64,000 nucleotides of DNA from Streptomyces sp. SLBN-118 (GTDB taxonomy: Bacteria > Actinomycetota > Actinomycetes > Streptomycetales > Streptomycetaceae), in the NCBI RefSeq assembly GCF_006715635.1, contig NZ_VFNP01000001.1, positions 1,612,001-1,676,000 on the forward strand. Direction: 5' to 3'. Every line of letters begins with the position of its first letter. Position 1 is the stretch's first letter. The translations under genes and the position numbers were made by a program. Positions 57,688 through 64,000 of this stretch are shown one piece after another. The notes beneath the pieces are model-generated. The model was given only the letters and a program-made list of their open reading frames with translations, searched no databases and was not told the DNA's origin.

Positions 57688-58506
57688 CTATGCGCGGAGT
57701 TCCAAGGTGCAGCACTTGACGCTGCCACCTGCCTTGAGGAGTTCCGCGATGTCGACGCCGATCGGGTTGAAGCCGCGTTCCCTCAGTTCCTTGATCAGCC
57801 CTGAGGCGGCCTCCGGCAGCAGTACATTCAGGCCGTCGGAGAAGGCGTTGAGGCCAAAGGCCGCTGCATCGTGATCAGACGCCAGAATGGCATCCGGAAA
57901 AAGCTCACGGAGCACAGCCTGACTTCCCGGCGTGAAAGCATCCGGGTAATACATGATCTCCGTGTCGGTGAGAACCGACAGTGCCGTGTCCAGATGGTAG
58001 TGGTTGGGATTGACCAGGGTCAGGCCGACCACCGGGAGCCCGAAGAACTCCTGAGCCTCTGCGTGCGAACGGGAGTCGGTGCGAAACCCTGACCCTGCCA
58101 AGATGTGGCGCCCGACAGGGAGATAGTCGCCTTCCCCCTCATTGATGAACTCCGGCCACAGTACGTCCTCGTATCCGTTGTCGATGAACCAGTTGAGATA
58201 GGCGGGTCCTTCGGCCGTGCGCTCCATGTGCCGGAAACGGGCGCCCATGACCTTCCCGTCCACCACGGTGGCGCCATTCGCGGCGAAGACCATGTCAGGC
58301 AGACCCGGTATCGGTTCGATCACCTCGACCTTGTGCCCGAGGGAAAGATAGAGTTTGCGCAGTTGCTCCCACTGCCGCACGGCCAGTTCATTGTCAGTCG
58401 GTTTCTCCGGCCGCATCCAAGGATTGATCGAATATGTGACATCGAAGTACGAGGGGCGGCACATCAAGAGCTGACGGGGGTACGCTGTGCGGACTTTCTG
58501 GACCAT
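57688..58506 (-). CDS. Guanidine-modifying hydrolase, dimethylargininase/arginine dihydrolase-like (272 aa)
   Basis: Amidinotransferase-fold enzyme that cuts guanidino groups of arginine or methylarginine. DMVFAANGATVVDGKVMGAR is the first active-site strand, VNPNHYHLDTALSVL holds the catalytic His, and the nucleophilic Cys is in GGSVKCCTLELRA at the C-terminus. The product could be citrulline or ornithine. ATG 58506 follows GGAGAAAGA. Its codons use more A/T than neighbours, suggesting recent arrival. Last gene of the minus-strand set. Confidence 0.82.
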   Translation of the reverse strand: MVQKVRTAYPRQLLMCRPSYFDVTYSINPWMRPEKPTDNELAVRQWEQLRKLYLSLGHKVEVIEPIPGLPDMVFAANGATVVDGKVMGARFRHMERTAEGPAYLNWFIDNGYEDVLWPEFINEGEGDYLPVGRHILAGSGFRTDSRSHAEAQEFFGLPVVGLTLVNPNHYHLDTALSVLTDTEIMYYPDAFTPGSQAVLRELFPDAILASDHDAAAFGLNAFSDGLNVLLPEAASGLIKELRERGFNPIGVDIAELLKAGGSVKCCTLELRA

Positions 58507-58547
58507 TCTTTCTCCAACTGCTCGACGGTAGCTTCCGGATGATGCCT

Positions 58548-59309
58548 TCACTGTGGCAGGGTGCGAATATGGCTCGTCAGCCTGCCACCGTGGTGGATGT
58601 GAAAAGCCAGTGCAATCGGCGAATCCGTGCATGTCCAGGACTCTTCTGCATCGGCTTGCTCCCAGGGCAGCGCTGCCGTGGAGGCGATACCCGGCGCACA
58701 CAGCAGAGGAAGCCCCGCGAACGTCGTGCCGGCGGCCGTGTGCGCATGGCCGCACAGCACTCCTGCCACGCGGGGGTGACGGCGCACGACCTGTTCCAGT
58801 CGATCGGCCTCCCGCAGCCGGATCGCGTCGATGTACGGGATACCGAGCTCCACGGGCGGATGGTGGAGAGCGATGAGGGCTGCTGTGCCCCGGGACTCGG
58901 CGAGGGTGGCGTCCAGCCAGTCGAGCGTCGACTCCTCAAGCCTTCCCTCCGGACGCCCGGGAATGGACGAGTCGCACATCAGCAGGTGTACGTCGCCGAT
59001 GTGCCGGGCCTGATTCACCGGAGCGCTGCCCTTGCCCGGCTGACCGAGCAGGACGTCGCGGAATTCCTCCCGGACATCGTGGTTCCCCGGACACACCAGA
59101 ACGGGGAAGTGCTCGTAGAGCGGGGCGAGGACCTCGCGGGCCTGGAGGTACTCCGCCTCCGTACCGCGGTCCGCGATGTCCCCTGTGATCACGACGGCAT
59201 CAACCGTGCCCGGCAGCCCCGCCAGGTAGGACACCACGCGCCGGACCCGCTCCTCGCTTTCCCGGCTGCCGTCCAGATGCAGATCGCTGAGCTGCGCCAG
59301 AACCGTCAT
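58548..59309 (-). CDS. Calcineurin-like metallophosphoesterase (CpdA/GpdQ type, 253 aa)
   Basis: All dimetal motifs are visible: QLSDLHLD, GDIADRG, PGNHD, ALHHPP and CGHAHT. Related enzymes hydrolyse cyclic nucleotides or phosphodiesters. Inside this set it may remove a phosphate or nucleotide group from an intermediate. Its ATG overlaps the transporter stop (4 nt). Confidence 0.87.
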   Translation of the reverse strand: MTVLAQLSDLHLDGSRESEERVRRVVSYLAGLPGTVDAVVITGDIADRGTEAEYLQAREVLAPLYEHFPVLVCPGNHDVREEFRDVLLGQPGKGSAPVNQARHIGDVHLLMCDSSIPGRPEGRLEESTLDWLDATLAESRGTAALIALHHPPVELGIPYIDAIRLREADRLEQVVRRHPRVAGVLCGHAHTAAGTTFAGLPLLCAPGIASTAALPWEQADAEESWTCTDSPIALAFHIHHGGRLTSHIRTLPQ

Positions 59310-61527: not shown

Positions 61528-63216
61528 CTACGGCACGAGGACGGCGTCGGGGACGTCACGAGGAACCGGGACGGATGTGATCCGCTCGACGGCGGCCTTG
61601 ACCAGGCCGGCGAAGAGGGGGTGGGGGCGGGTCGGGCGTGAGCGCAGTTCGGGGTGGGCCTGGGTGGCGACCAGGTAGGGGTGCACCTCGCGCGGGTACT
61701 CGACGTATTCGACGAGCTTGTTGTCGGGGGACGTGCCCGAGAAGAGGATGCCCGCCTTCTTCTCCAGCTCCGTGCGGTAGGCGTTGTTCACCTCGTAGCG
61801 GTGGCGGTGGCGCTCCTCGACGTAGGGCTGGTCGCCGTAGACCTCGCGGACGATCGAGCCCTCGGCGAGCTTCGCCGGGTACAGACCGAGGCGCATCGTT
61901 CCGCCGAGGTCGCCCGCACCCTCCACATACGCCAGCTGCTCCTCCATGGTGGAGATCACCGGGTGGGCGGTGGCGGCATCGAACTCGGTGGAGTTGGCCT
62001 CGGGGATCTCGGCCAGGTTGCGCGCGGCCTCGATCACGATGCACTGCAGGCCCAGGCACAGGCCGAGCAGCGGGATCCTGTTCTCGCGGGCGTAGGTGAT
62101 CGCGCCCACCTTCCCGTTCACACCACGGTCGCCGAAGCCGCCGGGGATGAGGATCGCGTCGACGTCACCGAGCTGCCTGGCGGCGCCGGCCGGGGTCTTG
62201 CAGTCGTCGGAGGTGACCCACTTGACCGTGACACGGGCCCTGTTGGCGAAACCGCCGGCGCGCAGCGCCTCGGTCACCGAGAGATAGGCGTCGGGGAGGT
62301 CGATGTACTTGCCGACCAGCGCGACCGTGACCTCGTGGTCGGGGTTGTGCACCCGGTCCAGCAGGTCGTCCCAGACGGTCCAGTCGACATCGCGGAACGG
62401 CAGGTCCAGCTTGCGTACGACATAGGCGTCCAGGCCCTCGGTGTGCAGCACCTTGGGGATGTCGTAGATCGACTTGGCGTCGATCGCCGCGACCACGGCC
62501 GCCTCGTCCACGTCACACATCAGCGAGATCTTGCGCTTGATCGCGACCGGCACATCGCGGTCCGCTCGCAGCACGATCGCGTCTGGCTGAATACCGATGT
62601 TCCGCAGGGCGGCGACGGAGTGCTGGGTCGGCTTGGTCTTGAGCTCGCCGGACGGGCCGATGTAGGGCAGAAGCGAGATGTGCACCACGAAGACGTTGTC
62701 CCGGCCGACCTCGTGGCGTACCTGCCGCACGGTCTCCAGGAACGGCAGCGACTCGATGTCGCCCACCGTGCCGCCCACCTCGGTGATGACGACATCGACG
62801 TCGTCGGCGGCCATCCGCCGGATCCGGTGCTTGATCTCGTTGGTGATGTGCGGGATGACCTGGACGGTGTCGCCCAGGTACTCACCACGCCGCTCCTTGG
62901 CGATGACCTGGGAGTAGACCTGCCCCGTGGTGACGTTGGCCGAGCCGTCGAGGTCGACGTCGAGGAACCGCTCGTAATGGCCGATGTCCAGGTCGGTCTC
63001 GGCGCCGTCGTTGGTGACGAACACCTCGCCGTGCTGGAAGGGGTTCATCGTGCCCGGGTCGACGTTCAGATACGGGTCGAGCTTCTGCATGGTGACCCGC
63101 AGGCCCCGCGCCTTGAGCAGCGCGCCCAGGCTGGAAGCCGTAAGGCCCTTGCCGAGGGAGGAGGCGACACCCCCGGTGACGAAGATGTGCTTGGTCGTCA
63201 TGGATTTGGGCGGCAT
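61528..63216 (-). CDS. pyrG: CTP synthase (562 aa)
   Basis: Converts UTP to CTP with glutamine. The synthetase domain starts [20 protein letters not shown] with the phosphate loop; [11 protein letters not shown] and [12 protein letters not shown] follow. The glutamine amidotransferase domain has the Cys nucleophile in [10 protein letters not shown] and the His/Glu in [10 protein letters not shown]. Complete and probably active, with an unusual C-terminal tail ([14 protein letters not shown]). ATG 63216 is likely, TTG 63222 possible. The neighbourhood is not the usual Streptomyces pyrG one, which suggests a second copy. Confidence 0.93.
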
Positions 63217-63290
63217 CGCCAAGAGGGGGCTCCCGTGGTCGCGAGGTGAGGTGAAGGAAGAAGTGGTCGGTGCTCAGGTGCGGGCGTCTC

Positions 63291-64000
63291 TCAGCGCGCG
63301 ACGGCCCGCGAGGACTGCGCCGTGCCAGGCTCCGCGTCCGGCTTTCCGTTCTGCCGGAGCTGCGGCAACGCCCTTTCGGCGCCCCTCTCCAACGTCCCGC
63401 GGGCGACGGCCCGTTCGAGCCACCAGCCGGCGATCTGCGAGGTGACGACGGCGGTGAGCACCAGCGTCGTGAACATCGACTCGTTGACGATCCCCGCGTC
63501 GAAGGAAACCGTCGCCAGCACGATGCCCGGACCACCGCGCGCGTTCATCGCCACGGCGAGATTCACGGACTGGGGCACCGGCCATTGCGTCATCCGGGCG
63601 CCCGCGTAGACGCTGGCCGCCTTCGCCACACAGGCAACTGTGATGAAGCCGAGTGCGAACCACGGGGCGAAGGAGTGCACCAGGTCGAGCCGAAGGCCGA
63701 CCACGGCGAAGTAGACGGGGACAAAGAATCCCGACGCGAAGCCGCGCATGACCTTGAGGGACTCCGAGTCAGGCAGCCTGCCTCTCAGTCCGGACATGAG
63801 ACCCACGACGAATGCGCCGAAGATCGGGGCGACGCCGAGGAAGATGCAGCCGCCGGCCACCGCCAGAACGACGGTCATGCGGACCGCCACCTGGCCGAGC
63901 GGACGGTCGGCACCGGCCGCCGTCGCAGCCGCGGCCCGGCGGCGGAACATCAGGCCGCCCAGTGCCATCAGCCCGAAGAAGGCGACGGACGCGAGGGAAT
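63291..64000 (-). CDS. Cation/proton antiporter, C-terminal part (5' end beyond window)
   Basis: CPA-family antiporter helices (LAVAGGCIFLGVAPIFGAFV, then VGLRLDLVHSFAPWFALG and NARGGPGIVLATVSFDAGIV). The frame is open to the window end. It ends 74 nt upstream of pyrG on the same strand and may head or join the operon. Confidence 0.82.
   Translation of the reverse strand, partial: SLASVAFFGLMALGGLMFRRRAAAATAAGADRPLGQVAVRMTVVLAVAGGCIFLGVAPIFGAFVVGLMSGLRGRLPDSESLKVMRGFASGFFVPVYFAVVGLRLDLVHSFAPWFALGFITVACVAKAASVYAGARMTQWPVPQSVNLAVAMNARGGPGIVLATVSFDAGIVNESMFTTLVLTAVVTSQIAGWWLERAVARGTLERGAERALPQLRQNGKPDAEPGTAQSSRAVAR

Follow-up and report, generated by a model that had tools for sequence, protein, structure and literature searches.

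In the phaseolotoxin (pht) cluster of Pseudomonas syringae, PhtL, a protein resembling phosphoenolpyruvate (PEP) synthase and pyruvate phosphate dikinase (PPDK), has been proposed to form the N-P bond, according to the sections of PMC4530439 that deal with it. Synthesis of the O-methyl phosphoramidate of the Campylobacter capsule involves a dedicated kinase that phosphorylates the amide of glutamine, followed by cytidine diphosphoramidate intermediates (excerpts of PMC6429109), and the calcium-dependent antibiotic (CDA) cluster holds paralogues of the tryptophan pathway that serve precursor supply (excerpts of PMC11195616). Here we describe a gene cluster of Streptomyces sp. SLBN-118 (genome G000, 7.79 Mb in two contigs) whose downstream end lies in the window, by which we mean the whole stretch of 64,000 nucleotides that was analysed (G000:C1:1612001-1676000). 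It includes a second gene for cytidine triphosphate (CTP) synthase, pyrG, whose core the housekeeping gene of the host seems to have overwritten. The reading that we prefer, and to which we give about an even chance, is that the 3' end of a biosynthetic operon lies in the window, that the core of this operon acts on phosphorylated nucleotides, probably those of cytosine, and that pyrG is present as a copy for CTP supply or for dosage.

The cluster is like that of phaseolotoxin, by description rather than by sequence comparison, in combining a PEP-synthase-like protein with ligases of the ATP-grasp type and with a primary enzyme of which the cluster bears a copy (there argK; same sections of PMC4530439), but ArgK is an insensitive enzyme whereas the core of the window PyrG is that of the housekeeping enzyme. 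With the CDA tryptophan genes it shares the duplication of primary-metabolism enzymes within a biosynthetic cluster (excerpts of PMC11195616); unlike them, paralogues of the window type have, in more than one host, nearly the same sequence as the gene of that host. From the Campylobacter pathway, again likened by description, the locus differs in that no capsule genes were recognised and an ATP-grasp ligase and an exporter are present instead, and in having a nucleotidyltransferase-like protein with a predicted fold of the ANT type. The Campylobacter glutamine kinase is PEP-synthase-like and the step that follows it uses CTP. We treat both the phaseolotoxin and the Campylobacter parallels as analogies.

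A preliminary description of this DNA had pointed to a divergent C-terminal tail on the window PyrG and had raised the question of a second pyrG elsewhere in the genome; the tail is real and the second gene exists. The latter, the housekeeping copy, is full-length (G000:C2:1493343-1494995) and lies among genes read from their sequence as NUDIX, alanine dehydrogenase-like, ParA-like and RecN-like, which we take to be the usual pyrG neighbourhood in Streptomyces. A third, weak match in the genome spans the glutamine-amidotransferase part only. The window PyrG contains the PF06418 and PF00117 domains, scores above the TIGR00337 cut-off and has Cys389 and an HPE motif at 523; the Cys nucleophile and the His-Pro-Glu motif are catalytic in CTP synthases. 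Three features define the gene (nt, nucleotides):

61528..63222, minus strand: second CTP synthase gene (pyrG), 564 amino acids (TIGR00337, 756 bits)
61583..63253, minus strand: pyrG tract apparently overwritten, 1670/1671 nt identical to housekeeping pyrG, including the 31 nt that precede the TTG start
61528..61582, minus strand: 3' tail of the cluster pyrG, outside the tract, different from the housekeeping copy

Homology between the two genes breaks off sharply at both ends of the tract and the sole mismatch within it, at 62887, is synonymous. The proteins show no difference over their aligned core, the divergence being confined to the last few codons, where the housekeeping copy ends in ...AVERKTAK. 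Because tails like that of the window PyrG (ITSxP/ITATP) occur in the clusters of Streptomyces sp. AP-93 (G257) and S. caeruleatus (G333), the tail, judged by its sequence, is cluster-derived and the core host-derived.

Two further hosts show the same near-identity. In Kitasatospora aureofaciens the cluster and host pyrG agree at 1617/1618 nt and the aligned-core proteins are identical. In AP-93 the two genes are 97.4% identical over 1682 columns, with 25 mismatches and a single 18-nt gap; the mismatches are grouped in patches inside the tract, the gap lies near the gene start, and the protein cores differ at 5 amino acids. The S. caeruleatus pair is 89.2% identical, and the cluster genes of Micromonospora and Nonomuraea are unlike their hosts' copies and not homogenised. 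Between the clusters of SLBN-118 and AP-93, the antiporter and ligase genes are 76-80% identical and pyrG 89.9%. From the near-identity we infer recombinational overwriting by the host pyrG, independently in three hosts. An assembly error as the source of the identical copies is unlikely, as there are three separate assemblies with differing tract ends and mismatches.

The direction of overwriting was assessed with a tree of 37 pyrG sequences, including those of 10/12 same-genus and 4/8 same-order relatives; the partial genes of G355, S. durbertensis and S. alkaliterrae were omitted, and L162, a same-order relative without an end marker, was used to the end of its open reading frame (ORF). The cluster and host copies of AP-93 group together, as do those of Kitasatospora, with a support of 100 each. 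Transfer from the housekeeping gene to the cluster is supported in two of the three hosts, AP-93 and SLBN-118, since the AP-93 pair joins the pyrG of a cluster-free relative, G012, at a support of 100 and the SLBN-118 tract carries the housekeeping leader found in other Streptomyces pyrG genes. Separately, the cluster pyrG of Micromonospora qiuiae (L060) is nearer to Streptomyces pyrG than to its host's own, an affinity that we would read as a sign of horizontal transfer of the cluster.

Fifteen clusters have a ligase after the core (the window, L051-L056, L058-L060, L063-L065, G355 and G507). Not counted among them are S. durbertensis (L057), which ends before the place of pyrG, and S. rhizosphaerihabitans and LUP30, in which the antiporter has no ligase after it. 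An intact pyrG is found in 6/15 (the window, AP-93, S. caeruleatus, Kitasatospora, Micromonospora qiuiae and Nonomuraea solani) and remnants in 4/15 (SirexAA-E, JHA26, SID10853 and S. meridianus), whilst the other five gave no trace of the gene, G507 among them being judged by tblastn only. The degraded remnants lie between the antiporter (or the DCD gene) and the ligase:

L054, 13624-13878: pyrG remnant
L065, 12201-12386: pyrG remnant
L064, 13548-14225: pyrG remnant
L053, 13508-13602: pyrG remnant

The best matches of the four loci have E values from 7.6e-18 to 1.3e-95; in a control for chance, 3/160 shuffles matched at E 1e-3. The remnants show that these four clusters formerly had a pyrG. 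All six hosts with an intact cluster gene have two full copies, and eight of the nine hosts without one have a single copy. The sole pyrG found in the ninth, G355, is in pieces, the middle one inverted (G355:C1:6956459-6958685; L040, L043, L047); as pyrG is essential, this split is probably an assembly fault.

The rest of the operon is what suggests a use for CTP. The preliminary description had placed five minus-strand genes and an antiporter at the end of the window, and the coordinates and spacings of all six are confirmed. Besides pyrG these are:

57688..58506, minus strand: DDAH-type (dimethylargininase) hydrolase, accessory gene, 272 amino acids (NCBIfam NF045659, 445 bits, cut-off 300)
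58548..59309, minus strand: metallophosphoesterase, 253 amino acids (Pfam PF00149 on a longer ORF enclosing it)
59306..60268, minus strand: EamA-type transporter, probable exporter, 320 amino acids (Pfam PF00892)
60255..61514, minus strand: ATP-grasp amide/dipeptide ligase, 419 amino acids (NCBIfam PRK07206, 342 bits, cut-off 302)
63291..64000, minus strand, gene extending as far as 64664, beyond the window: CPA2 cation:proton antiporter, 457 amino acids (Pfam PF00999)

From the DDAH gene to the antiporter the spacings are a 41-nt gap, overlaps of 4 and 14 nt, and gaps of 13 and 68 nt. The cluster does continue past the right edge, as had been expected: positions 57688-64000 are the downstream end of a minus-strand gene series of ~17.5 kb, in which the gaps between called genes are all no more than about 130 nt as far as position 11228 of L004, a spacing that suggests a single operon. 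In operon order, its genes encode a DCD-like/PPDK fusion (836 residues), a CYTH-like protein (418), a HAD phosphatase (217), a type I phosphodiesterase (565), DUF6001 (327), DUF6031 (195), an SRPBCC protein (144), an HprK-like protein (361), a P-loop kinase (185) and a second DCD-like protein (176), followed by the CPA2 antiporter, PyrG, the ATP-grasp ligase, the EamA transporter, the metallophosphoesterase and then the DDAH. A regulator-like gene lies divergently upstream and is seen again in related clusters.

The metallophosphoesterase is kept 3' of the ligase in related clusters, and the grouping is not a matter of chance, because other species have the genes in the same order, antiporter-(PyrG)-ligase-(EamA)-phosphoesterase. 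To this extent the five-gene set that had been proposed stands, but its DDAH member is regarded here as accessory and outside the conserved set. No DDAH gene was found beside the clusters of AP-93, S. caeruleatus, G332 and G355 within the stretches fetched around them; a relative lies 2.8 kb beyond the phosphoesterase in K. aureofaciens and S. diastatochromogenes, and SLBN-118 has a second DDAH (G000:C2:891017), 54% identical to that of the window. The ligase is, as had been suggested, of a dipeptide- or amide-forming type, the dapdiamide-synthase/L-amino-acid-ligase kind. It scores on the model of dapdiamide A synthase, DdaF, as well as on PRK07206, but lies far under the DdaF equivalog cut-off (222 against 840 bits); a search of the PDB with alignment A4 matched L-amino acid ligase 30vh at E 3.9e-76. 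In K. aureofaciens a second ATP-grasp ligase, an MFS-like transporter gene and the DDAH follow the phosphoesterase (L056, 17410-20906), and the product there may therefore be a longer peptide.

The idea that this is not a housekeeping grouping is upheld, the cluster being specialised and patchy in its distribution. Each of 20/20 relatives has one pyrG match (partial in G001, an incomplete genome) and the DCD-dikinase was not found in any of them; thus the arrangement that had been put forward as fatal to self-resistance, a single pyrG with neighbours conserved around it, is not what the genomes hold. DUF6001 matches occur in 8/392 genomes of the genus (seven strong, that of G098 weak), and matches to HprK alignment A1 at E 1e-60 in 9/394 family and 8/391 order genomes, these samples overlapping. 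A scan of one genome per species over 84,980 species gave 114 relatives, of which 80 were kept; the 20 best are from Actinomycetota, and most of the core is found in several weaker relatives, which belong to Pseudomonas, Burkholderia, Variovorax, Robbsia and Roseobacter. In L079 and L072, the two weaker relatives with ORFs listed, one gene encodes the deaminase-like part and another the dikinase, and the fusion is the actinobacterial form of the core.

Three catalytic residues of dCTP deaminase (Dcd) are Ser102, Arg106 and Glu129 in the Mycobacterium tuberculosis numbering. The D1 domains of the cluster keep the Ser and Arg with Gln at position 129 (32/32), whereas the D2 proteins keep the Glu and have lost Ser102, Arg106 and Asp119 (31/31). 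The complete catalytic set is not in one protein, and both D1 and D2 fall below the TIGR02274 cut-off. These counts are from 33 loci and SLBN-118, where L071 and L077 gave no DCD match and L057 ends before D2. Such complementary losses, from Actinomycetota to Proteobacteria, suggest either that the two proteins contribute to a common active site or that their role is in binding only. The dikinase has PF01326 ATP-binding and terminal PF00391 phosphohistidine domains, both above cut-off, with His798 invariant in 8/8 aligned sequences. The predicted model of DUF6001 (predicted local distance difference test, pLDDT, 82.7) matches ANT(4') nucleotidyltransferases in Foldseek at a modest level (E 1.2e-4, TMt about 0.5). 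A TSDxD sequence, possibly the SDxD-type metal motif of nucleotidyltransferases, is invariant in 12/12, but residues 15-25 of the model have a pLDDT below 50. The CYTH-like protein had no Pfam match and a PDB sequence search gave only two matches (E 0.19 and 0.89), whilst its model (pLDDT 78.1) matches thiamine triphosphatase in Foldseek (5a65, E 1.3e-4) and also 5a60 (E 7.2e-4), with low TM scores. Its ELEYK sequence, invariant in 8/8, may be the ExExK tunnel motif. Both fold assignments are leads rather than proofs. Overall, the core has the look of a pathway of nucleotide chemistry as yet undescribed, much of which is shared with Proteobacteria.

In the preferred reading, the core set of two dCTP-deaminase-like proteins (one dikinase-fused), CYTH-like, nucleotidyltransferase-like and HprK-like proteins, a kinase and several phosphatases would work on a phosphorylated nucleotide; the ATP-grasp ligase would then attach an amino acid and the EamA transporter export the product, most likely a cytidylylated or phosphorylated amino-acid metabolite. 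The embedded pyrG, part of the ancestral cluster, would encode an ordinary CTP synthase whose core has repeatedly been overwritten by the host gene, a change that would be tolerated because ordinary CTP synthase activity suffices. As the overwritten protein has no residues of its own except in the tail, its likeliest role is extra CTP-making capacity whilst the operon is on, and as 9/15 clusters do without an intact copy it would be a helper and not essential. The extra CTP would most probably feed a pathway using a cytosine nucleotide, with increased target dosage as a second possibility. Of the two roles that the preliminary description had offered for PyrG, supply of CTP for cytidylylated intermediates appears to fit better than a target copy, because the remaining operon looks like nucleotide chemistry.

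Several points weigh against this reading. The nine clusters without an intact pyrG imply that extra CTP is not always needed. In the tree the SLBN-118 pair, for which no support value was printed, falls inside the Streptomyces housekeeping copies on a branch of 0.078, compared with about 0.03 in the nearest sisters, and a fresh duplication landing within an old gene would look the same as overwriting. A cytosine nucleotide as the donor for the nucleotidyltransferase-like protein and as the ligand of the deaminase-like pair is a prediction, and the two fold matches have modest TM scores. Finally, an identical copy suits dosage protection equally well, and sequence cannot separate that from supply.

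Dosage is the likeliest of the alternatives, although in our view less likely than not: the product would inhibit CTP synthase and the producer survive through a larger amount of an enzyme that stays sensitive. A second pyrG inside an operon with an exporter speaks for this, as do two full copies in 6/6 hosts with an intact cluster gene against a single match in the 20 relatives (partial in G001), and the argK of phaseolotoxin is a precedent for a cluster-borne target copy (same sections of PMC4530439). However, nothing appears to tie the product to CTP synthase, and of the nine clusters without an intact gene eight are in hosts with one copy, the other being the split one of G355 (substitute protection was not systematically searched for). 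In Actinobacteria bacterium OK074, which has two core clusters, two ornithine carbamoyltransferase genes are found at a distance of several kb from one of them (L030:6052-8073); they recall argK, and one may be an ordinary argF.

That pyrG is a relic, dispensable and decaying in many clusters, with homogenisation a neutral by-product of high similarity, seems to us rather unlikely. The remnants and the clusters with no trace of the gene favour it, as does the restriction of near-identity to Streptomyces and Kitasatospora, the host-distant copies of Micromonospora and Nonomuraea not being homogenised. Against it, all six intact copies have open full-length frames, and the diverged ones have a ratio of non-synonymous to synonymous change (dN/dS) of 0.27-0.34 relative to the host copy, indicating some constraint. 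This last argument is weakened by the housekeeping pairs, for which the ratio was 0.07-0.12 inside the genus Streptomyces but 0.38 when Micromonospora was compared with Nonomuraea.

Altered-target self-resistance, the other role first offered, in which the cluster PyrG is an insensitive variant standing in for a sensitive housekeeping enzyme, is improbable: the core proteins of SLBN-118 and Kitasatospora are those of the housekeeping enzyme, with similar homogenisation in two hosts besides SLBN-118; overwriting would wipe out the allele needed, unless the tail alone gives resistance; and an intact copy is not in every cluster. Nor is it evident that the housekeeping locus has received a resistance allele, because the SLBN-118 housekeeping copy differs at three residues only from the aligned housekeeping copies of 22 other Streptomyces. 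Variants may have been of importance at one time, given the diverged cluster copies of S. caeruleatus, Micromonospora qiuiae and Nonomuraea solani, which have 16, 37 and 91 residues, respectively, absent from 31 aligned housekeeping proteins.

A more specific and quite unlikely reading is that the product is a cytosine-nucleotide phosphoramidate, the emptied deaminase domain holding CTP or dCTP undeaminated whilst the fused dikinase phosphorylates the exocyclic N4. CTP synthase acts through a C4-phosphorylated intermediate of uridine triphosphate (UTP), which the N4-phosphoramidate, if it exists, would mimic; one molecule would then account for the fusion of DCD and dikinase as well as for the copy of CTP synthase and a peptide-type cap for uptake.

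In genome mining, a housekeeping gene that is duplicated within a cluster is often taken to indicate what the drug targets. Because the duplicate here is near-identical to the host gene in three hosts, its sequence cannot carry a resistance signal; the cluster pyrG thus calls for care in target-directed mining, and it offers a natural test by which supply might be told from dosage. The core is notable in its own right for a pair of deaminase-like proteins that lack complementary catalytic residues in both Actinomycetota and Proteobacteria, one of them dikinase-fused in the actinobacterial form. No description of it was found among the top-ranked matches in the openly licensed literature (subscription papers and cluster databases lay outside the search); in PMC no openly licensed paper had DUF6001, and none combined CTP synthase, self-resistance, biosynthetic gene cluster and Streptomyces. 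On the phaseolotoxin side of the comparison, the text available of a 2024 review (PMC11278893) does not mention "deaminase".

Other candidates were set aside. PADLOC, run on 10 proteins for anti-phage defence, gave one weak match (metallophosphoesterase, E 5.9e-6). The Pbo cluster of P. syringae has, according to its abstract and table rows, genes of non-ribosomal peptide synthetase and polyketide synthase type. The cytidine and uridine phosphoramidates EM2487, 1100-50 and K-563 have a cyclopentane unit and a long alkylamine in their structures, and no genes for these were recognised here. Among 72,556 plasmid records, in which inclusion of the agrocin 84 plasmid was unchecked, no match to the dikinase covered 80% of the query.

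Elsewhere in the window, positions 13600-23128 hold an mce-type operon (an ABC ATPase, two MlaE permeases and six Mce/MlaD proteins), which we presume to resemble actinobacterial lipid/steroid uptake systems. Genes at 46541-53316, judged from sequence alone, read as encoding subunits of xanthine dehydrogenase type, a permease of the purine/uracil type and a protein like XdhC.

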